Positions 7,026-39,139 of a stretch of 64,000 nt of DNA are shown in pieces. The position numbers and the translations under genes are program-made. The stretch lies in contig NZ_CP120737.1 of the NCBI RefSeq assembly GCF_029581195.1, forward strand, positions 558,001 through 622,000, given 5' to 3'. The notes under the pieces were generated by a model. That model did no database searches. It was not told the origin of the DNA and saw nothing but the letters and a program-made list of their open reading frames with translations. Source of the stretch: Solwaraspora sp. WMMD791. Its GTDB lineage: Bacteria > Actinomycetota > Actinomycetes > Mycobacteriales > Micromonosporaceae. The stretch's first letter is position 1. Each line of letters opens with the position of its first letter.

Positions 7026-7054
7026 AGCATAGCAGTGTCAATCAAGCGCTTGGT
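7026..7054 (-). promoter_or_regulatory. KstR2-type operator S1 and -10 of the tetR promoter
   Basis: ATCAAGCGCTTGGT at 7041-7054 matches the KstR2 consensus AnCAAGnnCTTGnT at every fixed position. On the minus strand it is followed by TATGCT at 7031-7026, a good -10 for the tetR gene 40 bp downstream. The operator would sit between -35 and -10, fitting autorepression. Confidence 0.75.
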
Positions 7055-7110
7055 GCGCCGCCTGGCCGGATGACCTGCTCGGTCAGGTGGAGCTCGGGTA
7101 ACAATATCCA

Positions 7111-7148
7111 AGCGAGCGCTTGATTGGTGGCCGGGACGCGGCTAGTTT
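7111..7148 (+). promoter_or_regulatory. Importer promoter with operator S2
   Basis: TTGATT (7120-7125), a 17-bp spacer and TAGTTT (7143-7148) form a plausible vegetative promoter for the substrate-binding protein at 7197. The palindrome AGCGAGCGCTTGAT at 7111-7124 matches the KstR2 consensus with one mismatch and overlaps the -35, so bound repressor should block polymerase. Confidence 0.6.
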
Positions 7149-7196
7149 ACATGGCATTCACAAAGCCTCGGGCTTCACGGCTACCAGGAGAAGCAG

Positions 7197-8834
7197 ATGG
7201 CAACTGGTCGGAAACACAAGTGGAACGGGGCGTCCGCCCGCGTCGCGGTGGCCGGGCTGCTGCTCGCCAGCGTCGCCGCGTGCGGCGACGACAGCGATAG
7301 CAGCGAGACCGGCGGCATCCTCACCATGGCCACCTGGTCCGCCACCCAGTCACTCGACCCGGTCCAGGTCGCTGGCACCGGCAACTCCGGCGGCGCGGAA
7401 CTCGCGGCGCTCTACGACACGATCATGCGGTACGACCCGGCCGGCGGCACCTTCGAGCCGCAGACCGCCGAGTCGCTGACCCCTAACGACGACTTCACCC
7501 AGTGGACGCTCACCCTGCGCTCCGGGATCACCTTCAGCGACGGCGCGCCGTACGACGCGGCGGCGGTCGTGGCGAATCTGCAGCGGCACACCGAGGCACG
7601 GTCCAACGCCAGTTCGCTGGTCGCACCGATCACCGACTACGCCACCCCGGACGACCGCACGGTGGTGTTCACCCTGGCCTTCCCGTGGAACAACTTTCCG
7701 TTCGCCCTCGCCGGAACGCCCGGCATGGTGGTCAACCCGGCGGCCGTGGCCGCCCAGGGCGACGCCTTCGGCACCGACCCGCAGGGCGGCGGCGCGGGCC
7801 CCTTCACCATCGACGAGTTCCGCCCTGGAGAGTCGCTCACCCTGACCCGCAACCCTGAGTACTGGGGCGGCGACGTCCCGCTCGACGGGCTACGGTTCAT
7901 CCACGCGGGCGACGGACCGCAGACCTACGAGGCATTCCGGGCGGGCACGGTCGATCTGGCCTTCCTGCGCGACGCCGGGGCGATCGCGGACGCCGAGGCC
8001 GACGGCGCCGAAGGCATCCGGGTTCCGTACTCCGCCAACGACACGTTGATCATGAACAACGGGTTCCCGATCACCTGCCAGCAGGGCGAGCCGGCGCCGC
8101 GCTGCGAAGGCCAGCCCGACGGTACGCAGTTGGAGTCCACCGCTCCGACCGCCGACAAACGGGTCCGGCAGGCGGTCGCCGCGGCCATCGACCCCGAGAC
8201 GCTCAAACAACGGGTGTACGGCGGATCCGGCACCATGTCCACCGCGCTGATCTCCGCGGAGTCCCGGTGGTACGACGGCGTCGACGGACCCGCGTACGAC
8301 ATCGACCGGGCCCGCCAGTTGGTCGAGCAGGCCAAGGCCGACGGCTGGGACGGACGCATCCGGGTCAGCTGCCACACGGGTCTGCCGACCTGGGGGACCG
8401 CCGTACAGGGCATGTTGGAGGCGGCCGGCATGCAGGTCGAGCTCACCGACCAGCAGGAGATCGCCGCGAACACCTCGGCGGTCATCGTGCGCAAGGACTT
8501 CGACCTGGCCTGCTTCGGATCGTCGATCTCCGATGCCGAGCCGTTCTTCGCCCTCAACCGGGACTTCAACTCGACCTACGTCACCGCCGGCGGCGGGAAC
8601 TTCTCCGGCTACGTCAACCCCGCCGTCGACGAGGCGATCGCCGCAGGCCGGGCGTCCGGCAGCGAGGCCGAGGTCAAGGCCGCGATCACCACGATCGCCC
8701 GGGCGTACGCCGAGGACGTGCCGTTCCTCGCGCTGACCGCCCAGCCGGAAGTGGTGCTGGTCTCCGACGAGATCAGCGGCGTGCTGCAGAGCGTCAACAC
8801 CGTGGTGCTGCTCGGTGAGGCGACGCGGGGATGA
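7197..8834 (+). CDS. ABC importer substrate-binding lipoprotein, family 5 (Dpp/Opp type)
   Basis: A 545-residue protein starting at ATG behind an AGGAG site. A signal peptide ends in a lipobox (LLASVAAC, Cys about residue 29), so the mature protein is lipid-anchored outside the membrane. The body has the family-5 pattern: DPVQVAGTGNSGGAELAALYDTIMRYDP, a WTLTLRSGITFSDGAPYDAAAVVANLQRH block near residue 100, and GAGPFTIDEF. Family-5 proteins bind peptides, nickel, glycosides and other solutes. Two permeases follow downstream and two ATPases lie 5 kb away on the other strand. The operator at its promoter puts uptake under the KstR2-like repressor, so the ligand is probably the substrate of this cluster. 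The stop overlaps the next start (ATGA). Confidence 0.9.
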   Translation: MATGRKHKWNGASARVAVAGLLLASVAACGDDSDSSETGGILTMATWSATQSLDPVQVAGTGNSGGAELAALYDTIMRYDPAGGTFEPQTAESLTPNDDFTQWTLTLRSGITFSDGAPYDAAAVVANLQRHTEARSNASSLVAPITDYATPDDRTVVFTLAFPWNNFPFALAGTPGMVVNPAAVAAQGDAFGTDPQGGGAGPFTIDEFRPGESLTLTRNPEYWGGDVPLDGLRFIHAGDGPQTYEAFRAGTVDLAFLRDAGAIADAEADGAEGIRVPYSANDTLIMNNGFPITCQQGEPAPRCEGQPDGTQLESTAPTADKRVRQAVAAAIDPETLKQRVYGGSGTMSTALISAESRWYDGVDGPAYDIDRARQLVEQAKADGWDGRIRVSCHTGLPTWGTAVQGMLEAAGMQVELTDQQEIAANTSAVIVRKDFDLACFGSSISDAEPFFALNRDFNSTYVTAGGGNFSGYVNPAVDEAIAAGRASGSEAEVKAAITTIARAYAEDVPFLALTAQPEVVLVSDEISGVLQSVNTVVLLGEATRG

Positions 8835-9667
8835 CCAGCCGATCCGCGACCGACGCCGCTGACCCGTCGGCGCGGGTCAGCGGGCGGGGTGGTGCCGGCG
8901 CCGCCGGCACCACCCCGGCACCCCCGGTGGCCCTGATCACCGCAGCCGCCCACGGCATCGGGGCGGCCACCGCCCGGGTCTTCGCCGAGGCGGGACACCG
9001 GGTGGTCCTGGCCGATGTCGACGCCGACGGGCTGGCAGCCACCGCCGCCGACCTCGCCGGCAGCGGCCTGGACCCGGCGACGACGGTCGCGGTGGTCGCC
9101 GACGCGACCACCGAGGCCGGGGCCACCGCGGCGGTCGACGCGGCCGTCACCCGGTACGGGCGGCTCGACACGCTGGTGAACGTGGTGGGCGGCAGCCGGC
9201 CCGGCCGGACCGTGCTCGACATCGACCTCGCCGAGTGGGACCGCTGGGTGGCGCTCAACCTCACCTCGGTCTACCTGATGTGCCGGGCCGCGCTGCCGCA
9301 GCTGACGGCGGTCGGCGGGTCGATCGTCAACGTCTCGTCCGGGGCCGGCCTGCGGGGCATGCGGGCCAACCCGGCGTACTGCGCGGCCAAGGCCGGAGTC
9401 GTCGGACTGACCCGCGCACTGGCCATCGACCACGGTCCCGCCGGGGTCCGGGTCAACTGTGTCGCGCCCGGGCCGGTCCGGACCCCGTTGATGGAACGTA
9501 ACCGCACCGCGGCCGAGATCGACGCGATGGGGCGGATCGCGGTCCTCGGCCGGATCGGCAGGCCTGCCGAGATCGCCGCGGCGATCCGCTGGCTGGCCAG
9601 CGACGCCGCGTCCTACCTGACCGGTCAGACCATCGAGGTCGACGGCGGTCCGGCTCCGTTGGTGTGA
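8831..9667 (+). CDS. Short-chain dehydrogenase/reductase (SDR)
   Basis: A 278-residue classical SDR with a 35-residue disordered N-terminal extension. The cofactor loop is TAAAHGIGAA (Gly-rich, slightly degenerate), followed by an acidic residue in LADVDAD that favours NAD(H). The catalytic Ser is in NVSSGAG, and Tyr/Lys are in PAYCAAKAG; the C-terminal IEVDGGPAPLV is typical. It should oxidise or reduce a secondary alcohol or ketone. It overlaps the binding-protein stop by 4 bp and lies between the importer's binding protein and its permeases, so the alcohol is probably on the imported molecule or an early intermediate. Confidence 0.85.
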   Translation: MTSRSATDAADPSARVSGRGGAGAAGTTPAPPVALITAAAHGIGAATARVFAEAGHRVVLADVDADGLAATAADLAGSGLDPATTVAVVADATTEAGATAAVDAAVTRYGRLDTLVNVVGGSRPGRTVLDIDLAEWDRWVALNLTSVYLMCRAALPQLTAVGGSIVNVSSGAGLRGMRANPAYCAAKAGVVGLTRALAIDHGPAGVRVNCVAPGPVRTPLMERNRTAAEIDAMGRIAVLGRIGRPAEIAAAIRWLASDAASYLTGQTIEVDGGPAPLV

Positions 9668-9692
9668 CCCACGACGAGGGGAGGCAACGCTG

Positions 9693-10649
9693 ATGTTGCG
9701 GACCGTGGCGATCAAACTGGCCCTGCTCGTCCCAGTGTTGTTCCTGGTCAGTGTGGGCACGTTCGGGCTGCTCCAGCTGGGGCCGGGTGACCCCGCCGCC
9801 CAGGTGCTCGGCAACACCGGGACGGCCGCCGACTACCAGCGGATCCGTACCGAGATGGGGTTGGACCAGCCGCCGGTGCAGCGCTACCTCGAATGGCTCG
9901 GCGGCGTACTGCGCGGCGATCTCGGGCAGAACCTCGTCCCGCCGATCGAGAACGTCTCCGACCGGCTGCTGCGCGCGTTCCCGGTGAACCTGCAGCTCGC
10001 CGCGATGGCCATCGTGCTGGCCCTGCTGATCGCCGTCCCGCTGGCGATGTGGTCGGCCTACCGGGCCGGCGGGCTGGTCGACCGGTGGATCTCCGCCGGC
10101 ACCATCGGCGTCATCTCGGTCCCGCCGTTCCTGGTCGGCCTGCTCCTGCTGCTGGTGTTCGCCATCCAGCTCGGCTGGTTCCCGCTGGGGCAGTGGGCCC
10201 GGCCGTCCGACGCCGGGTGGGGGCAGAACCTGTGGCACGCGTTCCTGCCCGCGTTGACCCTGGCGCTGGCCGAGGCGCCGGTCTTCGCCCGCCTGCTGCG
10301 CGGCGACCTGGTCGCCACCCTGCAGGAGGACTTCATCCTGGCCGCGAAGGCCAAGGGCATGCCCGGCTGGCACATCATGCTCCGGGAAGCGCTGCGTCCC
10401 TCGTCGTTCTCGTTGATCACCCTCGCCGGGGTCAGCGCCGGCCGACTGCTGGGCGGCACCATCATCGTCGAAGCGGTCTTCGTGCTGCCCGGGGTGGGCA
10501 ACGTCATCATCACCGCCGCCCAGAACAACGACTACAAGCTGGTCCAGGGCGGTGTGCTGCTGATCGCGGTCATCTACCTGCTGCTGAATCTCGCCGTGGA
10601 CGTGCTGTACGGCTACCTCGACCCTCGGATCCGGAGACGGCATGCCTGA
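9693..10649 (+). CDS. ABC importer permease, DppB type
   Basis: A 318-residue inner-membrane permease behind a GAGGGGAGG ribosome-binding site. It has the DppB layout: a first helix LALLVPVLFLVSVGTFGLL, a periplasmic loop with GDPAAQVLG, five further helices, and the EAA coupling loop near residues 215-235 (ILAAKAKGMPGWHIMLREALRPS) that contacts the ATPase. The C-terminus DVLYGYLDPRIR is standard for the family. It overlaps the partner permease gene by 8 bp. It forms the translocation channel with that partner for the solute captured by the lipoprotein. Confidence 0.9.
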   Translation: MLRTVAIKLALLVPVLFLVSVGTFGLLQLGPGDPAAQVLGNTGTAADYQRIRTEMGLDQPPVQRYLEWLGGVLRGDLGQNLVPPIENVSDRLLRAFPVNLQLAAMAIVLALLIAVPLAMWSAYRAGGLVDRWISAGTIGVISVPPFLVGLLLLLVFAIQLGWFPLGQWARPSDAGWGQNLWHAFLPALTLALAEAPVFARLLRGDLVATLQEDFILAAKAKGMPGWHIMLREALRPSSFSLITLAGVSAGRLLGGTIIVEAVFVLPGVGNVIITAAQNNDYKLVQGGVLLIAVIYLLLNLAVDVLYGYLDPRIRRRHA

Positions 10650-11517
10650 ACTCAGCCGTACCCGACGGCGTCGGGCCGACCTCGCCTTCTGGCTCAGCGT
10701 CTGCTGGCTGGTCGTCCTCACCGGCTGCGCCCTGCTCGCCGATCTGCTGCCGCTGGGCAACGCCGACGACACCACCCTGACGATCGGCGTCGCCGGCTAC
10801 GCGCGGCCGGACCTGTTCTCGGCCAACCCGCTCGGCACGAACGGGTTCGGGCTCGACCTGCTGGCCCGGTCCATCCACGGAGCGCGGGTGAGCCTGCTGA
10901 CGGTCGGCTGCACCGTCGTGGTGAGCCTGCTGATCGGCGGTACGGTCGGGATGCTCGCCGGCTACTTCCGGGGCTGGGTCGACGTGGTCATCGGGATCTT
11001 CGCCGACGCCGCCCTGGTGATTCCCGCGCTCGTCCTGCTGATCGCCTTCGCCGCGGTGCTCGGTCCACCCCGCACCGTGCCGGAGGCGGTGCTCAAGAGC
11101 GGCCTGGCCCTGGCCGTGGTCGGCATCCCGACGATGATCCGGCTGGCCCGCGCCAACACGTTGCTCTTCGCGCAGCGGGAGTTCGTCACCGCCAGCCGGG
11201 CGATGGGTGCCCGGCACCGCCGGATCCTGTTCCGGGAGCTGCTGCCGAACGTGGCGTTGCCATTGGTCTCCTACGCCTTCATCGTCGCGGCGGTGCTGAT
11301 CGTCGCGGAGGGCTCGTTGGCCTTCCTCGGCCTCGGCCTGCAACAACCCGCACCGTCCTGGGGCAACATGATCGCCGAAGGCGGCCTGCGGGAGTTGCGT
11401 CGCCATCCGCACGTACCGCTGATTCCCGGCGTGTTCATGTTCCTCACCGTCTTCAGCCTGAACATCGTCGGAGAGCGCGCCCGGGCCCGGTGGGATCCCC
11501 GGGACTCCCAGGTCTGA
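10642..11517 (+). CDS. ABC importer permease, DppC type
   Basis: A 291-residue DppC-family permease. The N-terminal helix (LAFWLSVCWLVVLTGCALLADLLP) is followed by the family marker HPLGT-like NPLGTNGFGLDLLARSIHGARVSL, five helices, and the coupling loop FVTASRAMGARHRRILFRELLPN. The GERARARWDPR ending is typical of DppC. It pairs with the upstream DppB-type permease, with which it overlaps by 8 bp. Nothing suggests loss of function. Confidence 0.9.
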   Translation: MPELSRTRRRRADLAFWLSVCWLVVLTGCALLADLLPLGNADDTTLTIGVAGYARPDLFSANPLGTNGFGLDLLARSIHGARVSLLTVGCTVVVSLLIGGTVGMLAGYFRGWVDVVIGIFADAALVIPALVLLIAFAAVLGPPRTVPEAVLKSGLALAVVGIPTMIRLARANTLLFAQREFVTASRAMGARHRRILFRELLPNVALPLVSYAFIVAAVLIVAEGSLAFLGLGLQQPAPSWGNMIAEGGLRELRRHPHVPLIPGVFMFLTVFSLNIVGERARARWDPRDSQV

Positions 11518-11580
11518 CCGCAGTGTCCGGGGTCGGTCAGCCCTCGACCGCCCGTCGACCCGAGCAGCAGGAGGTACGTC

Positions 11581-12384
11581 ATGCGGATGGACGAGTCGGC
11601 GTTCCGGCTGGACGGCCGCGTCGCCGCGGTCACCGGCGCCGGCAGCGGAATCGGCCAGGCGGTCGCGCAGACCCTGGCCCGGGTCGGCGCGGCGGTGGTC
11701 GTCGCCGACGTCGACGCCGAGCGTGGCGCGGCGACCGTCGCCACCATCACCGACGCCGGCGGGCGGGCCAGCTTCCAGCACACCGACGTCACCCGGCGGG
11801 CCGACCTGGACGACCTGGCCGCCGTCGCCGTCGACCGGTACGGCGGTCTCGACGTGCAGTGCAACATCGCTGGCGTGCCGTCGCTGGTCCGCGACCTGAC
11901 CGAGGTCACCGCCGCGGACCTCGACGCCGAGTTCGCGATCAGCGTCAAGGGCGTGCTGTACGGCTGCCAGGCCGCCGCCACGGTGATGTCCCGGCGCGGC
12001 GGGGGCGCGATCGTGAACATCTCGTCGACCGCCGCCGACCTGCCCGCCGCCGGCTACGGGCTCTACCACCTCGGCAAGCTCGCCGTCGTCGGGATGACCC
12101 GGACCCTCGCCCTGGAGCTCGGACCGAAGGGGATCCGGGTCAACGCGATCGCCCCCGGTGCCACCCTGACCAACTTCAGTGCCCGCAACTTCACCGATCC
12201 GGACGGCACCGTCGACGCCGAGCGTAAGCGCCAGTGGTTGGCCGGCATGGCGGCCCGGTCACCGCTGAACATGGTCGGCGACCCGCAGGATCAGGCGCTG
12301 CTGGTGCTCTACCTGGTCTCCGACGCCGCCCGGTTCGTCACCGGGCAGCTGATCCGGGCCAACGGCGGATGGTCGATGGGCTGA
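11581..12384 (+). CDS. Short-chain dehydrogenase/reductase (SDR)
   Basis: A 267-residue classical SDR behind an AGGAGG site. It has TGAGSGIGQA for the cofactor, VVADVDAERG with an acidic residue that favours NAD(H), CNIAGVPSL in place of the usual NNAG, catalytic Ser in NISSTAAD and Tyr/Lys in YGLYHLGKLA. An FSARNFTDPDGTVDAERKRQW loop near residue 200 is the substrate lid. It acts on a secondary alcohol or ketone, probably in the pathway fed by the neighbouring importer. The stop and the following ATG overlap by one base (TGATG). Confidence 0.85.
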   Translation: MRMDESAFRLDGRVAAVTGAGSGIGQAVAQTLARVGAAVVVADVDAERGAATVATITDAGGRASFQHTDVTRRADLDDLAAVAVDRYGGLDVQCNIAGVPSLVRDLTEVTAADLDAEFAISVKGVLYGCQAAATVMSRRGGGAIVNISSTAADLPAAGYGLYHLGKLAVVGMTRTLALELGPKGIRVNAIAPGATLTNFSARNFTDPDGTVDAERKRQWLAGMAARSPLNMVGDPQDQALLVLYLVSDAARFVTGQLIRANGGWSMG

Positions 12385-14694: not shown

Positions 14695-15720
14695 TCACGG
14701 CCGTGGCCGGCCGGCGGTGGGTCCGTCGGCCGGCGCGTCCTGCGGGAAGTGACAGGCGACGTACTGGTCCGGACCGGTCCGGCGCAGCTGCGGCTCGGAC
14801 CGGGCGCAGATCTGCGCCGCCCGGGGGCACCGGGTGCGGAACCGGCAGCCGCTCGGCGGATCGAGCGCAGACGGCAGTTCAGCTGCGGTGCGAGCCGGTG
14901 CCGGGGAGCCGTCGTCCAGCTCCGGGATCGAGCGCAGCAACAGCGCCGTGTACGGGTGGGCGGGCCGGGCGAACAGCACGTCCGGCGAGGCGACCTCGCA
15001 GATCTTGCCGAGGTACATCACCACGATCCGGTCGCTGACCCGCTTCACCACCGCCAGGTCATGGGCGACGAACAGCAACGTCAGGCCGTATCGGCGTTTC
15101 ATCTCCTCGAGCAGGTTGAGGATCTGTGCCTGGACCGAGACGTCCAGCGCGCTGACCGGTTCGTCGCAGAGCAGCACAGCCGGTTCCAGCACCAGCGCAC
15201 GCGCGATGCAGACCCGCTGGCACTGCCCGCCGGACAACTCGTGCGGTCGCCGGTCGCCGACCAGCCGGGGGTCCAGCCCGACGGCGTCGAGGACCTCGTC
15301 GACCCGACGCCGGGCGGCGGCACCGCTGTCGCGGTGCCAGATCCGCAGACCTTCGGCGACGATGTCCCGGACGGTGCGGCGGGGGTTGAGCGACGAGATC
15401 GGGTCCTGGAAGATCATCTGCAGTCGGGTGCGGGTGCGGCGCAGTCGCTCGCCGCGCAGCGCGGTCAGCTCCGTGCCGTCGAACCGGACGGATCCGCCGG
15501 TCGGTGGAGGCAGCTGCAGGATCGCCCGGCCGGTAGTGGACTTTCCGCAGCCCGACTCGCCGACGAGGCCGACGGTCTCCCGGACCCGGGCGTCGAGGCT
15601 TATCCCGGCGACCGCTTGGACGGTGCGGCCCCGCCCGGCGGGGAATTCCACGGTCAGGTCCTCGACCCGCAGCACCACATCGTCGGTGTCGCGCAGATGC
15701 GCCTTGCCGGTGCCGGCCAT
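14695..15720 (-). CDS. ABC importer ATPase, DppF type
   Basis: A 341-residue ATPase. It has Walker A GESGCGKST near residue 55, signature LSGGQCQR, Walker B LLCDEP and the switch His in FVAHDLAVV. The C-terminal oligopeptide-transporter domain carries the CRFRTRCP and CHF cysteines expected of a Dpp/Opp ATPase. It overlaps the upstream ATPase gene at base 15720 and pairs with it under the permeases at 9693 and 10642. Both ATPases are on the opposite strand from the permeases, which is unusual but still inside one regulon. Confidence 0.9.
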   Translation of the reverse strand: MAGTGKAHLRDTDDVVLRVEDLTVEFPAGRGRTVQAVAGISLDARVRETVGLVGESGCGKSTTGRAILQLPPPTGGSVRFDGTELTALRGERLRRTRTRLQMIFQDPISSLNPRRTVRDIVAEGLRIWHRDSGAAARRRVDEVLDAVGLDPRLVGDRRPHELSGGQCQRVCIARALVLEPAVLLCDEPVSALDVSVQAQILNLLEEMKRRYGLTLLFVAHDLAVVKRVSDRIVVMYLGKICEVASPDVLFARPAHPYTALLLRSIPELDDGSPAPARTAAELPSALDPPSGCRFRTRCPRAAQICARSEPQLRRTGPDQYVACHFPQDAPADGPTAGRPRP

Positions 15721-16818: not shown

Positions 16819-16847
16819 TTGCCAGCCTAACAAGCGCTTGGTACTTT
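16819..16847 (+). promoter_or_regulatory. Promoter with operator S3
   Basis: TTGCCA (16819-16824), a 17-bp spacer and TACTTT (16842-16847) form a promoter for the NTF2-like gene at 16887. The operator AACAAGCGCTTGGT (16829-16842) fills the spacer and matches the KstR2 consensus fully. The same operator lies just upstream of the divergent DppD-type gene. Confidence 0.75.
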
Positions 16848-17454: not shown

Positions 17455-18216
<762 letters not shown>

Positions 18217-26912: not shown

Positions 26913-26938
26913 GTACCAAGCGCTTGTTAGGGTACGCT
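26913..26938. promoter_or_regulatory. Operator S4 between the hydroxylase operon and the thiolase
   Basis: ACCAAGCGCTTGTT at 26915-26928 matches the KstR2 consensus fully. On the minus strand CCTAACAAGCGCTTGGTAC (26931-26913) is identical to the S3 promoter at 16826-16844. On the plus strand TACGCT (26933-26938) lies 7 bp before the thiolase ATG, the spacing of a leaderless -10 box. The site could control both directions. Confidence 0.7.
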
Positions 26939-28195: not shown

Positions 28196-28224
28196 TGGCC
28201 AGCCAATCAAGCGCTTGGTACATT
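28196..28224 (+). promoter_or_regulatory. Ipd operon promoter with operator S5
   Basis: TGGCCA (28196-28201), a 17-bp spacer and TACATT (28219-28224). Operator ATCAAGCGCTTGGT (28206-28219) lies in the spacer and matches the KstR2 consensus fully. The whole 29-bp segment aligns with the S3 promoter with four differences. It should drive the ten genes from 28279 to 38340. Confidence 0.78.
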
Positions 28225-31033: not shown

Positions 31034-31823
31034 ACCGCCGGCCGGGCTGCGGCCGCCGGCCGGGCCGACCGGCCATGGCCTGCTCGCCGGCCGGACCGTG
31101 CTGGTCACCGCTGCGGCCGGCACCGGCATCGGCGCGGCGACCGCGCGACGCTGCGCCGAGGAGGGTGCCCGGGTGGCGATCAGCGACCGGCACGAAGCGC
31201 GCCTACGGACGACGGCCGCTGAGCTCGCCGCCGCGACCGGTGTGGAACCTCTCGCGGTCGTCTGCGACGTCACCGTCGAGTCGCAGGTGCAGGCGATGAT
31301 CGACCAGGTCGTCACCGGCTACGGCCAGCTCGACGTGCTGGTCAACAACGCCGGCCTGGGCGGCACCGCCCGGATCACCGAGATGACCGACGAGCAGTGG
31401 CACCGGGTGCTGGACGTCACCCTCACCGGCACCTTCCGGTGCACCCGCGCCGCGCTGCGGCACATGATGCCGCGCGGCAGCGGCGTGATCGTCAACAACG
31501 CCTCGGTGCTGGGCTGGCGGGCCCAGCAGGGCCAGGCGCACTATGCCGCCGCCAAGGCCGGGGTGATGGCGTTGACCCGGTGCAGCGCCGTCGAGGCCGC
31601 CGAGGCCGGGGTCCGGGTGAACGCAGTCGCGCCGAGCCTCGCCATGCACGCCAACCTGGCCAAGGTCACCGATGACGCCCTGCTGGCCGCGCTGGCCGAC
31701 CGGGAGGCGTTCGGCCGGGCCGCCGAACCCTGGGAGGTGGCGAACGTGATCGTCTTCCTGGCCAGCGACTACGCCTCGTACCTGGTGGGCGAGGTGCTCT
31801 CGGTCAGCAGCCAACACCCGTGA
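31020..31823 (+). CDS. ipdF: IpdF-like short-chain dehydrogenase
   Basis: A 267-residue SDR overlapping the end of ipdC by 14 bp. It has blocks I recognise from mycobacterial IpdF: HGLLAGRTVLVTAAAGTGIGAATARR, ISDRHEARLRTTAAEL, VNNASVLGWRAQ, HYAAAKAGVMALTRCSA and EAFGRAAEPWEVA, with the unusual C-terminus EVLSVSSQHP. Catalytic Ser, Tyr and Lys are present. IpdF oxidises the ring hydroxyl of 5-hydroxy-HIP-CoA-type intermediates to the ketone that EchA20 then acts on. Its position just before an EchA20-like gene agrees. Confidence 0.87.
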   Translation: MATAEPPAGLRPPAGPTGHGLLAGRTVLVTAAAGTGIGAATARRCAEEGARVAISDRHEARLRTTAAELAAATGVEPLAVVCDVTVESQVQAMIDQVVTGYGQLDVLVNNAGLGGTARITEMTDEQWHRVLDVTLTGTFRCTRAALRHMMPRGSGVIVNNASVLGWRAQQGQAHYAAAKAGVMALTRCSAVEAAEAGVRVNAVAPSLAMHANLAKVTDDALLAALADREAFGRAAEPWEVANVIVFLASDYASYLVGEVLSVSSQHP

Positions 31824-31833: not shown

Positions 31834-32655
31834 ATGACATCCACAAAGGACAGTACGATGGTCGTCGCGACCACCGGCGCCGACGGAGTGACCGAGATCG
31901 TGGTCGACCGGCCGCCGGTCAACGCGCTGCCGGTCGCCGGCTGGCACCGCCTCGCCGAGGTGGTCACCGCCGCCGGTGCCGACCCGGCGACCCGCGTGGT
32001 GGTGCTGCGGGCGCAGGGCCGCGGCTTCAACGCCGGGGTCGACATCAAACAGATCCAGGCCGATCCCGGCAACGACGCGCTGATCGGCGCGAACCGGGGC
32101 TGCTTCGCGGCGTTCGCCGCCGTCTACGACTGCCCGGTGCCGGTCGTCGCCGCCGTTCACGGCTTCTGCCTCGGCGGCGGCATCGGCCTGGTCGGCAACG
32201 CCGACATCATCGTGGCCAGCGACGACGCCACGTTCGGACTGCCCGAGGTGGACCGGGGCGCGCTCGGTGCCGCCACCCACCTGTCCCGGCTGGTGCCACA
32301 GCACCGGGCCCGGGCGATGCTCTACACGGCCGCGACCGCCACCGCCGCCGAACTGCACGCCTACGGGTCGGTGCTGCGCGTGGTTCCGGCCGCCGACCTG
32401 CGGGCCGCCGCGCTGGACGTCGCCCAGCAGATCGCCGCCAAGGATCCGGCGGTGATCCGGGCGGCGAAGGAGTCGCTCAACGGCATCGACCCGTGGGACG
32501 TCAAGCGCAGCTACCGCTACGAGCAGGGCTTCACCTTCGAGTTGAACCTGTCCGGTGTCGCCCACCGGGTCCGCGACGGCTTCGGTGACCGGCCCGCCGG
32601 GCCGGCGCGGCGACGCGGTGCCGGCCGGGCCGCCGACCCGGAGCGGGAGGGCTGA
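31834..32655 (+). CDS. echA20: EchA20-like ring-opening hydrolase (crotonase fold)
   Basis: A 273-residue crotonase-family protein. Close agreement with what I recall of EchA20 is seen in PPVNALPVAGWHRLAEVVTAAGA, RGFNAGVDIKQIQ, ANRGCFAAFAAVYDCPVPVVAAVHGFCLGGGIGLVGNADIIVAS, FGLPEVDRGALGAATHLSRLVPQH and RYEQGFTFELNLSGVA. EchA20 hydrolyses ring D in the diketo-indene carboxyl-CoA intermediate. A second start at 31858 (MVVATTG, behind AAAGGA) aligns better with the mycobacterial N-terminus and may be the real one. The C-terminal 25 residues (Arg/Ala-rich) are an extension. Confidence 0.87.
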   Translation: MTSTKDSTMVVATTGADGVTEIVVDRPPVNALPVAGWHRLAEVVTAAGADPATRVVVLRAQGRGFNAGVDIKQIQADPGNDALIGANRGCFAAFAAVYDCPVPVVAAVHGFCLGGGIGLVGNADIIVASDDATFGLPEVDRGALGAATHLSRLVPQHRARAMLYTAATATAAELHAYGSVLRVVPAADLRAAALDVAQQIAAKDPAVIRAAKESLNGIDPWDVKRSYRYEQGFTFELNLSGVAHRVRDGFGDRPAGPARRRGAGRAADPEREG

Positions 32656-32658
32656 CCG

Positions 32659-33798
32659 ATGGACCTGCGTCCGAATCCGGGCGACGAACAGTTCCGCGCC
32701 GAGGCCCGCGACTGGCTGCGTGCCCACCGGCCGACCCGGCCGTTGCCCTCCGGGGACACCCGGACCGGGTTCGCCGCCCATCTGGAATGGGAGCGGACGC
32801 TGCACGACGGCGGCTGGTCGGTGGTCTCCTGGCCCCGCCGCTACGGCGGCCGGGACGCCTCGCTGTGGCAGTGGCTGATCTTCGAGGAGGAGTACGCCGC
32901 CGCTGGCGCGCCGCAGCGGGTCACTCAGAACGGCATCTTCCTGCTCGCGCCGACCCTGTTCGAGTTCGGTACCGACGAGCAGCGGGACCGGATCCTTCCG
33001 GCGATGGCCGCCGCCGAGCAGCTGTGGTGTCAGGGCTGGTCCGAACCGGACGCCGGCAGTGACCTGGCCGCGCTGACCAGCCGGGCGGTCCGCGACGACG
33101 CGGCCGGTGGCTGGCGGCTGACCGGACACAAGACGTGGACCACCCGGGCGGCGTTCTGCACCCATCTGTTCGGCCTGTTCCGTACCGATCCGCAGCAGCA
33201 GCGGCACCGGGGGCTGACCTACTTCCTGGTGCCGCTGGACGCCCCCGGGGTGACCGTACGGGGATTCGGCCGGTTCGACGGCGACGAAGGGTTCGCCGAC
33301 GTCCACCTCGACGACGTCTTCGTCCCGGACACCGACGTGATCGGCGAGGTCGGGGCCGGCTGGCGGGTGGCGATGGCCACCACCGGCTCCGAACGCGGCC
33401 TCACCCTGCGCCCGCCGGGCCGGTTCACCGCGGCCGCCGCCCGGCTGGTCGAGCTGGCCGGCGACCGGCCGGACCAGCTCACCGGCCGGCTGCGCGAGCA
33501 GGTGGTCCGCGCCTGGCTCGGTGCCCGCGCCTACCACCTGTTCACCCTGGCCCAGGTGACCCGGATGCTCGACGGCGACCCGCCGGGCGCGGCGGCCAGC
33601 CTCAACAAGATCCACTGGTCCGAGCTGGACATCGCGCTGCACCGTACCGCCCTCGACCTGCTCGGCCCGGACGCCGAGGTCGACGCCGAGTGGACCCGTG
33701 GCTTCCAGTTCTCCCTGGCCGGCCCGATCTACGCCGGCACCAACGAGATCCAACGCGGCATCGTCGCCGAGCGGCTGCTCGGCCTGCCCCGACGCTGA
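32659..33798 (+). CDS. Acyl-CoA dehydrogenase, probable IpdE1 subunit
   Basis: A 379-residue acyl-CoA dehydrogenase, full length. FAD-binding motifs LWCQGWSEPDAGSDLA and KTWTTRA are clear, and the C-terminus IYAGTNEIQRGIVAERLLGLPRR is typical of the FadE30/IpdE1 group. In steroid degraders IpdE1 and IpdE2 form a heterotetramer that dehydrogenates 5-hydroxy-HIP-CoA; one subunit carries the FAD site and the other is degenerate. The next gene is a shorter dehydrogenase, matching this two-subunit pattern. The start ATG is 3 bp after the EchA20-like stop. Confidence 0.82.
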   Translation: MDLRPNPGDEQFRAEARDWLRAHRPTRPLPSGDTRTGFAAHLEWERTLHDGGWSVVSWPRRYGGRDASLWQWLIFEEEYAAAGAPQRVTQNGIFLLAPTLFEFGTDEQRDRILPAMAAAEQLWCQGWSEPDAGSDLAALTSRAVRDDAAGGWRLTGHKTWTTRAAFCTHLFGLFRTDPQQQRHRGLTYFLVPLDAPGVTVRGFGRFDGDEGFADVHLDDVFVPDTDVIGEVGAGWRVAMATTGSERGLTLRPPGRFTAAAARLVELAGDRPDQLTGRLREQVVRAWLGARAYHLFTLAQVTRMLDGDPPGAAASLNKIHWSELDIALHRTALDLLGPDAEVDAEWTRGFQFSLAGPIYAGTNEIQRGIVAERLLGLPRR

Positions 33799-33810: not shown

Positions 33811-34857
33811 ATGCGGTTCGCCCTCACCGACGAGCAGGCCACGCTCCGCGACGCGGTCGACGACCTGCTCACCGCCGAATGCCCACCGTCGGTGGTCCGC
33901 GCCGCCTGGCCCGGTGGTGACCCGGCCCCGCTGGACCGGCTCTGGACCGCGCTCGCCGAGATGGGCGTGCTCGCCGCAGCTGTGCCGGAGTCCGCCGGTG
34001 GCCTCGGGCTGACCGAGGTGGACCTGGTGCCGCTGCTCACCGCCGCCGGGTACGCGGCGGTGCCGCTGCCGGTGGCCGAGACCGCCGTCGTCGCCGGACC
34101 GCTGCTGGCCGCCGCCGGCGACCCTGGTGGGCAGCTCGCCGCGCTCGTCGAGGGCCGCTGCCGGATCGCCGTCGCCGGGCCGGGCGGCCTGGTCCCGTAC
34201 GGGCAGCGGGCCGACCTGCTGCTGCTCCTGACCCCGCCGGACGGACCCCGACTCGTCCGGCCGGACGAGGTCGCGACCACGCCGGTGCCGACCATGGACG
34301 GCAGCCGGGCCGCGGTGCGACTCACCGGCGAGCCCGCCGCCGGGCCGTCCGTCGGCATCCGGCTCGACGTGCCGGCCGACCTGCTGTCGCTGACCGTCGA
34401 CCGGGCCACCCTGGCCGCATCGGCGCAGCTGGTCGGGCTCGGCCGCCGGATGCTCGACCTCACCATCGCGCACGTCGGCACCCGCCGCCAGTTCGGCGCC
34501 CCGGTCGGCAGCTTCCAGGCGGTCCAGCACCAGCTCGCCGACGTCCTGCTCGGGCTGGAACTCGCCGCCCCGGCCGTGCTCGCCGCCGGCTGGGCGGCCG
34601 CCACCGGGGCCGACAGCCGTCCGGCCGACGTCTCGGCCGGCTACCTGCTCGCCGCCGACGCCGCCGAACGGACCGCCCGCGCCGCGCTGCAGTGCCACGG
34701 CGCGATCGGCTACACGACCGAGTACGACCTGCACCTGTACGCCAAGCGAGCGTGGGCGCTCGTGGCCGCGACCGCCGGCACCGACCACCACCTCGACCGG
34801 CTCGGCACCGCGATCGGACTGCCCGCCGCCACCGCCGAGCAAGGAGGACGACCGTGA
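33811..34857 (+). CDS. Acyl-CoA dehydrogenase, probable IpdE2 subunit
   Basis: A 348-residue short acyl-CoA dehydrogenase behind GAGGAG. The N-terminal alpha domain (FALTDEQATLRDAVDDLLTAE) and the C-terminal domain (RRQFGAPVGSFQAVQHQLADVL, then ALQCHGAIGYTTEYDLHLYAKRA) are present, while the middle beta domain is short and lacks the usual SEP and T-S-W FAD motifs. This is the pattern of the second subunit of heteromeric actinobacterial dehydrogenases. It probably pairs with the product at 32659. The stop overlaps the next GTG by 4 bp. Confidence 0.82.
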   Translation: MRFALTDEQATLRDAVDDLLTAECPPSVVRAAWPGGDPAPLDRLWTALAEMGVLAAAVPESAGGLGLTEVDLVPLLTAAGYAAVPLPVAETAVVAGPLLAAAGDPGGQLAALVEGRCRIAVAGPGGLVPYGQRADLLLLLTPPDGPRLVRPDEVATTPVPTMDGSRAAVRLTGEPAAGPSVGIRLDVPADLLSLTVDRATLAASAQLVGLGRRMLDLTIAHVGTRRQFGAPVGSFQAVQHQLADVLLGLELAAPAVLAAGWAAATGADSRPADVSAGYLLAADAAERTARAALQCHGAIGYTTEYDLHLYAKRAWALVAATAGTDHHLDRLGTAIGLPAATAEQGGRP

Positions 34858-35774
34858 CCGACGCCGCCGCGAGCCCGTCACCACCCGCCGAGGACCGGCC
34901 GGGCGAGGCCGCCGACGCCCCCGTCGCCGACGAGGCGGTGGTCCGGTACGCCACCGACGGGCCGGTGGCGGTGGTCACCATGAACCGCCCCCGGTACGCC
35001 AACGCCCAGAATTCCGCGATGACCTACGCACTCGACGACGCCTTCGCCCGGGCCGCCGCCGACGACGACGTACGGGTGGTGGTGCTCGCCGGCGCTGGTA
35101 GGCACTTCTCCGCTGGCCACGACATCGGCACCCCCGGGCGCGACGCCGACCGCAGCTTCCCGCGCCGGGCCGGGCTGTGGTGGGACCACGTCGGCAAGGC
35201 CGGCGCGGAGAGCCGGTTCGCCCGCGAGTCCGAGGTCTACCTCGGCATGTGCCGGCGCTGGCGGGAGCTGCCCAAGCCGACCATCGCCATGGTGCAGGGT
35301 GCCTGCATCGCCGGCGGGCTGATGCTCGCCTGGTGCTGCGACCTGATCGTCGCCGCCGACGACGCCCGGTTCGCCGATCCGGTCGTTCGGATGGGCATCC
35401 CGGGTGTCGAGTACTTCGCCCACCCGTGGGTGATGGGGCCCCGCTTCGCCAAGGAGTTCCTCTTCCTCGGTGAACGGGTCGACGCCGACCGGGCGCTGAC
35501 TCTCGGCATGGTCAACCGGGTGGTACCCCGCGCCGAGCTGGAGCCGTACACGATGGAGCTCGCCGGGCGGATCGCCACCATGCCCCGGCTCGGTCTGGCC
35601 CTGACCAAGAAGGCTGTCAACCAGGCCGAGGACCTGATGGGTCTGCGGGCCGGGATGGATTCGGTGTTCGGCCTGCACCACGTGGCGCACGCGCACAACG
35701 CCGAGGTCGGCGACGATCCGCTGGCCGGGCACGACGCCCGCAGCATGCGCCAACGCACCGACGGTGCCGGCTGA
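34854..35774 (+). CDS. Enoyl-CoA hydratase/isomerase family protein
   Basis: A 306-residue crotonase starting at the GTG that overlaps the upstream stop, behind AAGGAGG. A 25-residue Pro/Ala-rich leader precedes VVRYATDGPVAVVTMNRPRYANAQN. The oxyanion-hole loop is AGRHFSAGHDIGTPG and the second is GACIAGGLMLAWCCDLIVAADDARFADPVVRMGIPGVEYFAHP. Catalytic-type acidic residues cannot be fixed without alignment. It is an extra crotonase beyond EchA20 in this operon and could hydrate a product of the IpdE pair or of later beta-oxidation. The last base is shared with the next ATG. Confidence 0.85.
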   Translation: MTDAAASPSPPAEDRPGEAADAPVADEAVVRYATDGPVAVVTMNRPRYANAQNSAMTYALDDAFARAAADDDVRVVVLAGAGRHFSAGHDIGTPGRDADRSFPRRAGLWWDHVGKAGAESRFARESEVYLGMCRRWRELPKPTIAMVQGACIAGGLMLAWCCDLIVAADDARFADPVVRMGIPGVEYFAHPWVMGPRFAKEFLFLGERVDADRALTLGMVNRVVPRAELEPYTMELAGRIATMPRLGLALTKKAVNQAEDLMGLRAGMDSVFGLHHVAHAHNAEVGDDPLAGHDARSMRQRTDGAG

Positions 35775-36676
35775 TGCGCGTCGACGTCCAACTGTTCGGC
35801 CTGCCGGCCACCGAGTACGCGCCGCTCGCGGTGCACGCCGAGCGGCTCGGCTTCGACACCGTGTGGCTGGCCGATCACGTGATCACCCCGGCCCGGTACG
35901 CGCCGACCTACCCGTACCGGTCCTCCGGCGACCCCGGTATCCGGCCGGACACCCCGCTGTCCGACGTGACGGTGACGCTCGGGCACCTGGCCGCCCGGAC
36001 CAGCCGGATCCGGCTCGGTACCGGCGTGCTGATCGCCCCGCTGCGGGACCCGTTCCACCTCGCCCGCGCCTGGGCGAGCCTGCAGCAGCTCTCCGCCGGC
36101 CGGGCGGTGCTCGGCGTCGGGGTCGGCTGGATGGCCGAGGAGTTCGCCGCACTCGGCGTCGACTTCGGCACCCGGGGCGCCCGGACCGACGAGATGCTGC
36201 GGGTCCTCGACCTGCTCTGGTCCGGCGAGCCGGTGGCACACCAGGGTCGGTTCTTCGACTTTCCGACCGTACACTTCGGTCCCTCGCCGCAGCCGCCGGT
36301 GCCGGTGGTGGTCGGTGGTCACAGCCCGGCCGCGCTGCGTCGGGCCGCCCGGCACGGTGCCGGCTGGTTCGGGCCCGACGTGGATCTGGCGACCTCGGCC
36401 CGGCTGTGCGGGCGGATAGCGCAGCTGCGGGAGCAGGTCGGCCGCGACGACGACTTCACCTACCACGTCCGACTGCACGGTGCGATCAGCGTCGCCACGG
36501 TGCGGGCGTACCGCGACGCCGGGCTGGACCACCTGGTCGTCGCTCCGTTCACCCGGCTGCCACCGGCGGCCACCCGGGCGGACCGGCTGGCCGCCCTGGA
36601 CTCCGTCGCCGAGCGACTCGCGTCGCTGTGGCCCGACCCGGCATCGACCGGCCACCCCGCAGGAGAGACCCGATGA
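35774..36676 (+). CDS. LLM-class F420-dependent oxidoreductase
   Basis: A 300-residue luciferase-like TIM barrel: LAVHAERLGFDTVWLADHVITP, RLGTGVLIAPLRDPFHLARAWASLQQLSAGRAVLGVGVGWMAEEFAALG, and VVVGGHSPAALRRAARHGAGWF. These match coenzyme-F420 members rather than FMN-dependent ones, consistent with an actinobacterium. It should transfer hydride to or from an alcohol, ketone or C=C. A member of this family is also encoded in the cholesterol region of Mycobacterium tuberculosis, but its reaction is not settled. The gene shares one base with the upstream stop and 4 bp with the next start. Confidence 0.85.
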   Translation: MRVDVQLFGLPATEYAPLAVHAERLGFDTVWLADHVITPARYAPTYPYRSSGDPGIRPDTPLSDVTVTLGHLAARTSRIRLGTGVLIAPLRDPFHLARAWASLQQLSAGRAVLGVGVGWMAEEFAALGVDFGTRGARTDEMLRVLDLLWSGEPVAHQGRFFDFPTVHFGPSPQPPVPVVVGGHSPAALRRAARHGAGWFGPDVDLATSARLCGRIAQLREQVGRDDDFTYHVRLHGAISVATVRAYRDAGLDHLVVAPFTRLPPAATRADRLAALDSVAERLASLWPDPASTGHPAGETR

Positions 36677-38340
36677 CCACTGTCGACCCACCGGCCGCCT
36701 TCGACCAGGAGACCATCGACGAGTACACCCGGGCCGGGCACTGGACCGGTGACACCATCGCGTCGATGGTGGCCGGGCACGCCGCCGCCCGGCCCGACGA
36801 TCCGGCGTTGCTCGCCACCGACGCCACGCTGACCTGGTCGCAGTACGACACACTGAGCACCCGGCTGGCCGGTGGCTACGTCCTGGCCGGCCTGCAACCA
36901 GGGGAGCGGATCGCCACCCTGCTCACCAACGGAGCGTTGGTGCACGTCGCGTACCTGGCCGCGCAGAAGGCCGGCCTGGTGACGGTCGGCATCGGACCGC
37001 GTGCCGGAACCGCCGAGGTACGGCACCTGATCCGGCGTACCGGGGCGAGCGCCCTGCTCACCCGGCCGGTGCACCGGGGCCGCGCCGCTGGCGACCTGGC
37101 CGCCGACCTGTGGGCCGTCGGCGTCCCGGTCGACCGGCCGACGCACCTGACCGCGCAGCTCACCGCAGCCGGTGAGCTGCACCTGCTTCGCGACGGCGAG
37201 CCACTGGACCTGCCCGACCTGGTGACCGCCGAGACCGCGATCGCCGGTCGCGGGCTCGGCGCCGACGACCTGTTCTTCCTCAACTCCACCTCGGGCACGA
37301 CCGGGCTGCCCAAGTGCGTGATGCAGACGATGAACACGCGCAAGTACTTCGGGCCGCTCGCGGCCGAGGCGGCCCGGTTCGGTCCGGACGAGGTCTTCGC
37401 CAGCGTGCTGCCCGCTCCGTACGGCTTCGGCCAGTGGAGCGGTCACGTGGTGCCGGCCATGTACGGCTATCCGACGGTGCTGGCCGAGGAGTTCGACGCG
37501 GAACAGACCTGGCAGCTGATCGAACTGCACCGGGTCACCGTTCTCGCCGCTGTGACCAGCCAGTTCGTGATGATGCTCAACGCCCAGGGGCGCGCCGCCC
37601 GGGACGTGTCGTCGCTGCGCGTGCTGTTCACCGGCGGGGAGCGGGTGCCGGCGGACCGGGCCGCCCGGTTCGAGGAGGAGACCGGCTGCGCCGTGCTGCA
37701 GTTCTACGGTTCCAACGAGGCGGGTCCGATCAGCGTGACCCGGGTCGACGACTCCCGGGAGCAGCGGCTGGGCACCGCCGGACGGGTGATCCCGCAGATG
37801 CGGGTACGGCTGTTCGACGCCGAGGGTGCCGACGTGACCGCAACCGGTGGCCCTGGTCAGTGCGCCGCGCGGGGACCGGGACTGACCCCCGGTTACTACG
37901 ACGACCCGCAGGCCAACCAGCAGCTGTTCCACCAACAGGGCTGGATGCTCACCGGTGATCTGGTCCGGATCGACCCGGCCGGTTACCTCACGGTGACCGG
38001 CCGGGTGGCGGATTTCCTGATCCGGGGTGGGCACAACGTCAGCGTGTTGGCGGTCGAGGAAGCGGTCGGCGGCTGCGAGCGGGTCGCCCAGGTCGCCGTG
38101 GTACCGGCCGCCGACGAGGTGCTCGGGGAGCGGGCCTGCGCCTACGTGGTGACCACCGACGGGACCGACCTGACCCTCGACGAACTCCGGGCCGACCTGG
38201 CCGCGCGGGGGATCTCCAAGTACGAGTGGCCGGAGCGGCTGGTCACCCTGGCGGAGCTGCCGTTGAGCGCGGGCGGCAAGGCGGACAAGGCGTGGCTGCG
38301 GGCCGATGCCGCGACCCGGTTCGGTCAGCCGACGCGGTGA
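36673..38340 (+). CDS. Acyl-CoA synthetase (AMP-forming), possible FadD3-type ligase
   Basis: A 555-residue ANL-family adenylating enzyme starting at the ATG that overlaps the LLM stop, behind AGGAGAG. The P-loop is NSTSGTTGLPKCVMQT, the A5 motif is QFYGSNEAGP, A7 is GWMLTGDLVRID and A8 is RVADFLIRGGHNVS; the catalytic Lys is in LSAGGKADKAWLR. It activates a carboxylic acid to its CoA thioester. In this operon the best candidate substrate is a HIP-like indane propionate or a related alicyclic acid, as for FadD3, but the sequence is not close enough for me to name it FadD3. The 3' end overlaps the convergent isochorismatase gene by 16 bp. Confidence 0.85.
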   Translation: MTTVDPPAAFDQETIDEYTRAGHWTGDTIASMVAGHAAARPDDPALLATDATLTWSQYDTLSTRLAGGYVLAGLQPGERIATLLTNGALVHVAYLAAQKAGLVTVGIGPRAGTAEVRHLIRRTGASALLTRPVHRGRAAGDLAADLWAVGVPVDRPTHLTAQLTAAGELHLLRDGEPLDLPDLVTAETAIAGRGLGADDLFFLNSTSGTTGLPKCVMQTMNTRKYFGPLAAEAARFGPDEVFASVLPAPYGFGQWSGHVVPAMYGYPTVLAEEFDAEQTWQLIELHRVTVLAAVTSQFVMMLNAQGRAARDVSSLRVLFTGGERVPADRAARFEEETGCAVLQFYGSNEAGPISVTRVDDSREQRLGTAGRVIPQMRVRLFDAEGADVTATGGPGQCAARGPGLTPGYYDDPQANQQLFHQQGWMLTGDLVRIDPAGYLTVTGRVADFLIRGGHNVSVLAVEEAVGGCERVAQVAVVPAADEVLGERACAYVVTTDGTDLTLDELRADLAARGISKYEWPERLVTLAELPLSAGGKADKAWLRADAATRFGQPTR

Positions 38341-39026
38341 TCGGGGGCCGGGTCGTCGGTCGACCCGGCCCATACCGCGACGATCTGCTCGCTCGTGGTC
38401 CAGTCCTCCGGGGCGAGCAGCGCCCGGAAGGCCGGTTCGCAGGCCGCGGTGAGCTCCGCGGTGTTGTTGGCGACGCAGTCGGCCGGTACGACGGTGAAGT
38501 AGTCCCGTTCGATCGCGTCGCGGACGGTGGACTCGACACATCCGGTGCCGGCTACCCCGGTCACGACCAGGCTGCGGATGTCCCTGCTGCGGAGCAGGTT
38601 CTCCAGCTGGGTGCCGACGAAGGCGCTGCGCCGCAGTTTCGCGAACACCACGTCCCCTGCCTGCGGGGCGAGCTCGTCCACGATCTCCCAGCCCCAGGTC
38701 CCGCGCATGCAGTGCATCGGCTCGAATCCGTGTCGGAGGTTGTCGGCCAGCCAGACCGGCGAGGCCAGCGACCCGTCCGGATGCTGCACCACCCGGCAGT
38801 ACAGCACCGCCGCGCCGGCGGCCCGCGCGGCGGCGGCGAGCCGACGGATCGGCGGGACCACGCCCTGGAAACCGGCGACCATCGGCCGGCCGAAGGACCT
38901 GGCGCAGTAGCCGTCGTCGTGTACGAAGTCGTTCTGCATGTCGACGATGAGCAGCGCCGTGCGGGCAGGATCGATCTTGAGGTCGAGGCGGTCGGGCAGG
39001 ACGTGACCGAGGTAGGTGCGGGGCAT
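38325..39026 (-). CDS. Isochorismatase-family cysteine hydrolase
   Basis: A 233-residue isochorismatase-fold hydrolase starting at the ATG with a GGGAG site upstream. The triad is visible: Asp in LLIVDMQNDFV, Lys in VFAKLRRSAF and Cys in VAGTGCVESTVRDA. Members hydrolyse amides, N-carbamoyl groups or nicotinamide. Operator S6 and a good promoter lie upstream, so it is likely in the KstR2-like regulon even though it is on the other strand. An amidase role would fit an N-substituted substrate and the aminotransferase at 12384, but this is speculation. Confidence 0.85.
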   Translation of the reverse strand: MPRTYLGHVLPDRLDLKIDPARTALLIVDMQNDFVHDDGYCARSFGRPMVAGFQGVVPPIRRLAAAARAAGAAVLYCRVVQHPDGSLASPVWLADNLRHGFEPMHCMRGTWGWEIVDELAPQAGDVVFAKLRRSAFVGTQLENLLRSRDIRSLVVTGVAGTGCVESTVRDAIERDYFTVVPADCVANNTAELTAACEPAFRALLAPEDWTTSEQIVAVWAGSTDDPAPDHRVG

Positions 39027-39086
39027 CGGGAACTCCCGGGGATCGACGGGGCGCGGGCACCGGGTGGTGCGCGGGTGCGGCTGCCA

Positions 39087-39139
39087 ATCAAATGCTTGGT
39101 TGATCTGTTGATCGTAGGCCGCACCGACCGGCCCGGCAA
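39087..39139 (-). promoter_or_regulatory. Isochorismatase promoter with operator S6
   Basis: On the minus strand TTGCCG (39139-39134), a 17-bp spacer and TACGAT (39116-39111) make a good promoter. ATCAAATGCTTGGT (39087-39100, plus strand) matches the KstR2 consensus with one mismatch and lies at the predicted transcription start, a position that fits repression. Confidence 0.65.

Follow-up and report, generated by a model that had tools for sequence, protein, structure and literature searches.

Ten predicted KstR2-type operators around an ipd gene cluster in Solwaraspora sp. WMMD791

In the genome of Solwaraspora sp. WMMD791 (Micromonosporaceae), a TetR-type gene lies close to an ipd operon, genes for importers and several palindromes resembling operators of KstR2. 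The question raised by this locus is whether these genes stand under one control and which substrate they would serve. The stretch analysed, here called the window, comprises 64,000 nucleotides (NZ_CP120737.1, genome 558001–622000); positions refer to the window unless marked as genome positions. An earlier note on the window had proposed six operators in 32 kb. The six were real, but the set was incomplete, since ten predicted operators span 56 kb (genome 541–597 kb). It is likely, judged from sequence, that a KstR2-family repressor controls this ten-site regulon, which would serve import and breakdown of a bicyclic compound. That the compound would enter the steroid C/D-ring pathway below methylhexahydroindanedione propanoate (HIP) is about evenly balanced.

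Operator sites

A pattern search re-found exact matches to ANCAAGNNCTTGNT at 7041, 16829, 26915 and 28206 and one-mismatch matches at 7111 and 39087, all six as noted earlier. The whole 6.93-Mb single-contig genome has no exact matches beyond these four, all inside the window. With up to two mismatches, the window held 25 matches versus 4.65 ± 2.23 in shuffled sequence, and not one of 100 shuffles got to 25. There are five copies of the core CAAGCGCTTG in the genome, none of them outside genome 541063–586217; the backwards control also gave five, so that for this core the clustering is evidence and the count is not. The 18-bp form CNANCAAGCGCTTGNTNG, picked post hoc with the sites already seen, was found with at most one mismatch at eight places in the genome, all eight in the cluster (control: one). 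As in a KstR2 regulon, the operator pattern AnCAAGnnCTTGnT is present in promoters of this cluster.

An independent 24-bp matrix was trained on 73 distinct exact sites from 80 TetR loci of other species only, and genome 528–622 kb (94 kb) was scored with it. The ten predicted operators scored 17.1–33.0 bits; the next best places scored 8.6 (45284, within a gene) and 7.4 bits (genome 539937). Scores reached at most 5.0 bits in control sequence taken from this genome (110.6 kb, of which 105.8 kb distinct, including eight stretches chosen for carrying one-mismatch matches) and at most 3.8 bits in the reversed region. Four of the ten sites precede the window, by up to 17 kb (genome 541061, 550971, 551054 and 556294). 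The six in the window, given without strand, are:

7041..7054, predicted operator before the TetR gene; exact, 21.8 bits, 4/4 congeners
7111..7124, predicted operator before importer 1; one mismatch, 19.7 bits, 4/4 congeners
16829..16842, predicted operator between divergent ATPase and SnoaL-SDR genes; exact, 33.0 bits, 4/4 congeners
26915..26928, predicted operator flanked by the monooxygenase operon and the thiolase gene; exact, 30.4 bits, 4/4 congeners
28206..28219, predicted operator before the ipd operon; exact, 32.5 bits, 4/4 congeners
39087..39100, predicted operator before the isochorismatase gene; one mismatch, 19.5 bits, 4/4 congeners

All ten sites fall between gene calls. The earlier statement that all six sites are in promoter gaps held; a further one-mismatch match at 45284, unlisted there, lies in a gene. 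This match was rejected as an operator: besides its low score, it was not kept in the orthologous stretch, which was present in the sequences of two of four congeners. A longer, GTG-start frame of the isochorismatase open reading frame (38325–39230) would overlap site 39087. At 28206, a TACATT starts at the final base of the 14-mer, as does a TACTTT at 16829; such an overlap would fit a repressor covering the promoter.

The 7.4-bit match at genome 539937 lies 18 kb before the window starts and is a half-site that precedes a metallo-beta-lactamase-fold gene. It scores 6.2–8.7 bits in four congeners and is a possible eleventh operator.

Conservation of the sites

An 80-kb stretch from each of four genomes of the same genus (survey numbers G034, G060, G093 and G114) was compared. 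Sites of at least 15 bits stood at orthologous promoters in all four, nine each in G034 and G060 and ten each in G093 and G114. The stretches of G034 and G060 are without the Baeyer–Villiger-type operon described below, and the site preceding it is also missing there. The counterpart of site 39087 in G093 is an exact match. The isochorismatase gene of G060 lies about 17 kb further away, and a site precedes it at the new place too.

Around the 80 related TetR genes of other species, 84 exact sites were found in 1.54 Mb, versus one in the reversed sequence. An exact site was present in 56 of these loci and lay no more than 500 bases from the TetR match in 43. Importers recur near TetRs of the window's type in Micromonospora yasonensis and two Nakamurella (a branched-chain-type permease after the site), and the locus of Nakamurella lactea includes monooxygenase, esterase and short-chain dehydrogenase/reductase (SDR) genes. 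In loci L041 (5816–8567), L047 (13289–14219) and L048 (4745–5690), branched-chain-type ABC permease genes begin just after KstR2-type sites and neighbour TetRs of the window group.

The TetR repressor and its clade

6330..6986, minus strand, KstR2-family TetR repressor, placed in a distinct clade (Pfam TetR_N and TetR_C_24; Protein Data Bank matches; trees)

The best structural matches of this protein were 2ibd (1e-50) and KstR2 of Mycobacterium tuberculosis, 4w97 (2e-44). In the alignment, the helix-turn-helix stretch GILSGSLYHHF is common to the window TetR and KstR2. It was found in 41 of 43 displayable tree rows and with one residue different in the remaining two; eight rows start late, so that the stretch could not be displayed. 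A TetR gene with the KstR2 helix-turn-helix and its own predicted operator (7041), as expected for a KstR2 regulon, is thus present, and autoregulation through this site is predicted.

Phylogenetically, the protein grouped with TetRs of Dactylosporangium, Nakamurella, Frankiales and others (100/100; trees of 44 and 51 proteins) in a clade that was long-stemmed in both trees. TetRs of Rhodococcus, Tomitella, Nocardioides, Saccharopolyspora and Nonomuraea stood apart. A single clade with the KstR2 rows of Rhodococcus and Tomitella was not recovered in either tree. The description of a KstR2-like TetR adjoining the first two sites is right as to the gene, but the protein stands apart from the rows representing canonical KstR2; its group would be either sister to KstR2 or nested within it. 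The KstR2-3 signature, as given in the accessible text of PMC13176608, was absent from the window TetR in the alignment. In Dactylosporangium roseum (G064, L199–L200), two adjacent TetR genes of the window group were observed with seven sites in 40 kb.

Genes behind the sites

The importer, NTF2/SDR pair, thiolase, Ipd operon and isochorismatase that had been assigned to the six sites do follow them; sequence, linkage and conservation agree on this. Operon limits were taken from gene order. Upstream of the window, site 541061 precedes genes for an aldehyde dehydrogenase (ALDH), an SDR, an old yellow enzyme-type flavoenzyme and an FAD protein. Site 550971 precedes importer 2 (two permeases and a fused ATPase), whose solute-binding protein gene follows site 556294. 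Site 551054 precedes a Baeyer–Villiger-type monooxygenase (a label based on a PtlE model match below cut-off, 265 of 1100 bits), an esterase and an SDR. Within the window, site 7111 precedes the binding protein, SDRs and permeases of importer 1, and site 16829 serves two directions, towards the importer 1 ATPases and the SnoaL/SDR pair:

7197..8834, plus strand, SBP_bac_5 solute-binding protein, importer 1 (family search)
8831..9667, plus strand, SDR oxidoreductase (family search)
9693..10649, plus strand, ABC permease, importer 1 (family search)
10642..11517, plus strand, ABC permease, importer 1 (family search)
11581..12384, plus strand, SDR oxidoreductase (family search)
14695..15720, minus strand, Opp/Dpp-type ATPase, importer 1 (ABC_tran and oligo_HPY)
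15720..16817, minus strand, Opp/Dpp-type ATPase, importer 1 (ABC_tran and oligo_HPY)
16887..17450, plus strand, SnoaL_4 (NTF2-like) protein (family search)
17455..18216, plus strand, SDR oxidoreductase (family search)

Site 26915 likewise serves two directions, towards a flavin monooxygenase operon and a thiolase gene:

20566..21567, minus strand, unnamed protein, encoded last in the operon starting at 26748 (matched neither by Pfam at 1e-5 nor by NCBIfam at 1e-30)
21603..22355, minus strand, SDR oxidoreductase (family search)
22348..24009, minus strand, FAD amine-oxidase/CrtO-like flavoprotein (CrtO model, below cut-off)
23963..25453, minus strand, aldehyde dehydrogenase (family search)
25450..26748, minus strand, flavin monooxygenase (nearest model 3-hydroxybenzoate 6-monooxygenase, 334 bits versus a cut-off of 459)
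26946..28187, plus strand, thiolase, PRK07851 type (36% identity to the thiolase after kstR2 in Tomitella)

The unnamed protein is 88–92% identical among congeners. Site 28206 precedes the ipd operon, so that ipdABC, ipdF and echA20 stand behind an operator as in a KstR2 regulon, with names resting on homology and gene order; site 39087 precedes the isochorismatase gene:

28279..29142, plus strand, ipdA-like CoA-transferase-fold subunit (homology and gene order)
29139..29900, plus strand, ipdB-like subunit (homology and gene order)
29897..31033, plus strand, ipdC-like NMO/FabK-type enzyme (homology and gene order)
31020..31823, plus strand, ipdF-like SDR (PRK07831, above cut-off)
31834..32655, plus strand, echA20-like enoyl-CoA hydratase (PRK07938, above cut-off)
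32659..33798, plus strand, acyl-CoA dehydrogenase (56% match with a fadE from the kstR2 locus of Rhodococcus)
33811..34857, plus strand, acyl-CoA dehydrogenase, IpdE2-like (120 bits, below the IpdE2 cut-off of 450)
34854..35774, plus strand, enoyl-CoA hydratase, PRK08290 type (85–89% to Dactylosporangium among the matches listed)
35774..36676, plus strand, F420/luciferase-like monooxygenase (LLM) family oxidoreductase (family search)
36673..38340, plus strand, acyl-CoA ligase (FadD3 model, 223 bits versus a cut-off of 657)
38325..39026, minus strand, isochorismatase-family hydrolase (family search)

Two further assignments were considered: the thiolase as a FadA6 orthologue, at 34–36% identity, and the ligase as FadD3, with its score below the model cut-off. 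A 62% relative of the ligase closes the ipd operon in two Dactylosporangium stretches.

A gentisate block extends from genome 557174 to window position 6375 and includes a KstD/ChcC1-like dehydrogenase (4741). None of the ten sites stands in front of it, and an IclR gene adjoins. The block also contains a gentisate-dioxygenase-like gene (below cut-off), a fumarylacetoacetate (FAA) hydrolase, a mycothiol maleylpyruvate isomerase domain, a fumarate-reductase-like flavoprotein and a ferredoxin. A GGDEF-EAL protein is encoded within the catabolic cluster (18384–20540). Rightward beyond 39.2 kb follow genes with no obvious connection to the cluster, among them glycosidases and peptidases. Neither tRNAs nor Rfam families at gathering score were found in the window.

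Comparison with known regulons

The KstR2 regulon of mycobacteria and rhodococci comprises 15 genes and three sites, and the kstR2 promoter site of M. tuberculosis, with KstR2 binding demonstrated by electrophoretic mobility shift assay, has the same CAAGCGCTTG core (PMC3068626). The system described here resembles that regulon in operator consensus, similar flanks, the helix-turn-helix stretch and a site next to the TetR gene, as well as in the ipdA/B/C-, ipdF-, echA20-like and fadE genes behind sites. It differs in having ten sites over 56 kb, a TetR from a distinct clade, two importers of the Opp type and a PRK07851-type thiolase that shares 34–36% identity with those following kstR2 in Rhodococcus and Tomitella. 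FadD3, FadE30 and KshA were not found in this genome. According to the available text of PMC5380842, HIP catabolism is initiated by FadD3, while IpdF, IpdC, EchA20 and IpdAB act later. KstR2 is relieved by HIP-CoA esters, and CamABCD and CamM take up cholate metabolites in Rhodococcus jostii, as described in the parts available of PMC8399759. As putative transporters for partly degraded steroids, the importers here resemble CamABCD/CamM, but they are of the SBP_bac_5/Opp type, and KshA and HsaC-grade markers were not found.

Markers of steroid degradation

In total, 200 Micromonosporaceae genomes were surveyed, seven of them of this genus, and ipdC was found in 42. Two congeners (G079 and G105) had no ipdC match and are outside the five ipdC-bearing genomes of the genus. 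KshA_C matched in 31 of the 200 genomes, strongly (E < 1e-80) in 25, all of which carry ipdC; 17 of the 42 ipdC genomes were without strong KshA. There was no KshA_C match in this genome nor in any of the seven genus genomes. In the five ipdC genomes of the genus, as in G020 and G103, no FadD3-family match reached E ≤ 1e-120; FadD3 scored above cut-off in 33 of the 42. A FadE30 orthologue, sought with a query chosen by gene order in the Rhodococcus locus L104, was not found in the genus (best 41–44%, also in G020 and G088, versus 61–71% in 35 of the 42). This genome is thus without recognised fadD3 and fadE30, the starters of HIP degradation expected in a KstR2 regulon. The HsaC model scored 87–91 bits in this genus versus 193–337 bits in 31 of the 42 ipdC genomes, to be read as relative scores only, since no ipdC genome attains the model cut-off; six of the 42 were without match at 1e-20. 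A dioxygenase at 2.8157 Mb was rejected as HsaC at 91 bits; by eye, it is clustered with a ring-hydroxylating-dioxygenase-like gene. The ring A/B and HIP-entry markers sought were KshA, an HsaC-grade dioxygenase, FadD3 and FadE30, while no search was made for KstD, HsaA, HsaB, HsaD or Mce4. As none of those sought was found, it is not safe to presume a steroid/HIP regulon.

A TetR near ipdC was found in 38 of the 42 ipdC genomes (G017, G019, G038 and G187 being left out). In the canonical TetR group, 20 genomes had strong KshA and two did not (G041 and G088), whereas in the window group two had it (G055 and G075) and 14 did not. The association of clade with KshA was significant (Fisher 1.3e-6, 38 genomes), but genomes cluster by genus, so that fewer events are independent than this p value implies, and the table scores as absent the weak KshA_C matches of G121 (82 bits), G095 (81 bits) and G103 (126 bits), though they lie above the Pfam cut-off. 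G088 had no KshA, no HsaC-like match, no FadE30 and FadD3 below cut-off (best 434 bits), and encodes a 47% relative of the Baeyer–Villiger-type gene near its ipd genes. G020 kept an HsaC-like match (285 bits), with KshA, FadD3 and FadE30 not found; it shares with this genus relatives of the ligase (43%) and the LLM enzyme (59%).

Proposed explanation and alternatives

We propose that a dimer of the TetR would occupy about ten palindromic operators of the C[A/T]AnCAAGCGCTTGnT type in the promoters of its own gene, two SBP_bac_5/Opp-type importers, the ipd operon, the thiolase, several SDR/ALDH/flavoprotein operons, the Baeyer–Villiger-type one among them, and the isochorismatase. The regulon would import a bicyclic compound, the rings of which would be opened via the IpdF/IpdC/EchA20/IpdAB route, and the compound would join at or below the stage with the HIP side chain already lost. 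Entry at or below such a side-chain-free stage appears most likely because the searches of the genus for KshA, HsaC-grade, FadD3 and FadE30 markers found none. While the sites and their conservation, the genes present, the unsuccessful marker searches and the TetR trees are observations, we infer binding, repression, inducer and substrate.

Several observations weigh against this reading. The whole-genome scan suggested earlier placed all four exact matches in the window. At up to one mismatch, however, there was no enrichment, with 107 matches genome-wide (positions known for 50) versus 119 for the pattern read backwards. Sites 7111 and 39087 therefore require other support, which is given by the independent matrix and by their presence in all four congeners. 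Exact sites were lacking in 24 of the 80 related TetR loci. Furthermore, according to the available text of PMC9973270, the core is also bound by the Pseudomonas TetR AtuR/RdmA, which resembles the window TetR as a regulator with AGCAAGCGCTTGG-type palindromes, but is linked there to acyclic terpene or diffusible signal factor metabolism, with no ipd genes mentioned. Seven FadD3-family ligases (214–334 bits) are encoded in the genome, so other enzymes could fill the missing steps, and none of the 42 ipdC genomes reaches the HsaC cut-off of 366 bits. Finally, a second TetR (genome 1,023,708–1,024,292, L029) is 62% identical to the first and has the same helix-turn-helix stretch.

Owing to this second TetR, the earlier claim of one control is likely but unproven, even though the sites precede the genes named. 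It is improbable that the operators are bound chiefly by this paralogue, or by both proteins: no catabolic cluster was recognised by eye among the gene calls around it, where no family search was made, the best matrix score in the surrounding 20 kb was −6.5 bits, and it is the cluster TetR that adjoins two conserved sites. That each promoter has its own regulator, with the palindromes being chance or relics, would accord with the commonness of one-mismatch matches across the genome and with the IclR gene of the adjacent gentisate block; the matrix scores, the clustering and the conservation over five genomes make it very improbable.

Although the simplest interpretation given that neither FadD3 nor FadE30 was found, entry below HIP has a serious rival in the scavenging of HIP with other entry enzymes. 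HIP from steroid degraders would be imported and activated with another ligase, such as 36673–38340, and another acyl-CoA dehydrogenase, under an otherwise ordinary KstR2 regulon. The Ipd core, the importers under predicted sites and the ligase at the operon's end are in line with this, as is the import of cholate metabolites by ABC and major facilitator superfamily transporters in R. jostii (accessible text of PMC8399759). All seven Dactylosporangium among the 42 ipdC genomes combine FadD3 above cut-off and a FadE30 orthologue with no strong KshA. However, Dactylosporangium fulvum carries both FadD3 and a 62% relative of the ligase, so the ligase need not replace FadD3, and a FadE30 orthologue was likewise not found here. 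We regard HIP scavenging as possible but doubtful.

Returning to the proposed regulon for a compound that enters below HIP, a broader suggestion may be ventured, on the unlikely side and tentatively. A separate branch of the KstR2 family may govern a C/D-ring-opening module uncoupled from steroid degradation, for compounds that yield a methylhydrindane carboxylate without HIP or a propionate side chain; the gentisate and ring-oxidising genes would take the other half, and the two Opp-type importers would bring the compound in. On paper, a vitamin D-type secosteroid or a hydrindane-bearing terpenoid would fit as substrate.

Implications

Among the open-licence papers listed by literature searches, most of them judged from the listing, none was seen to describe this regulon in Micromonosporaceae. 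What the cluster suggests is a steroid C/D-ring module that occurs apart from steroid degradation. Because 17 of the 42 ipdC genomes are without strong KshA, ipd genes or KstR2-like operators alone could mislabel genomes as those of steroid or HIP degraders. Uptake systems outside the Mce4 group are described as not yet identified in the available text of PMC4810484, and the cluster supplies candidate importers for bicyclic or steroid-derived compounds. The TetR group of the window would represent a branch of repressors that share the KstR2 operator and may answer to a different inducer.

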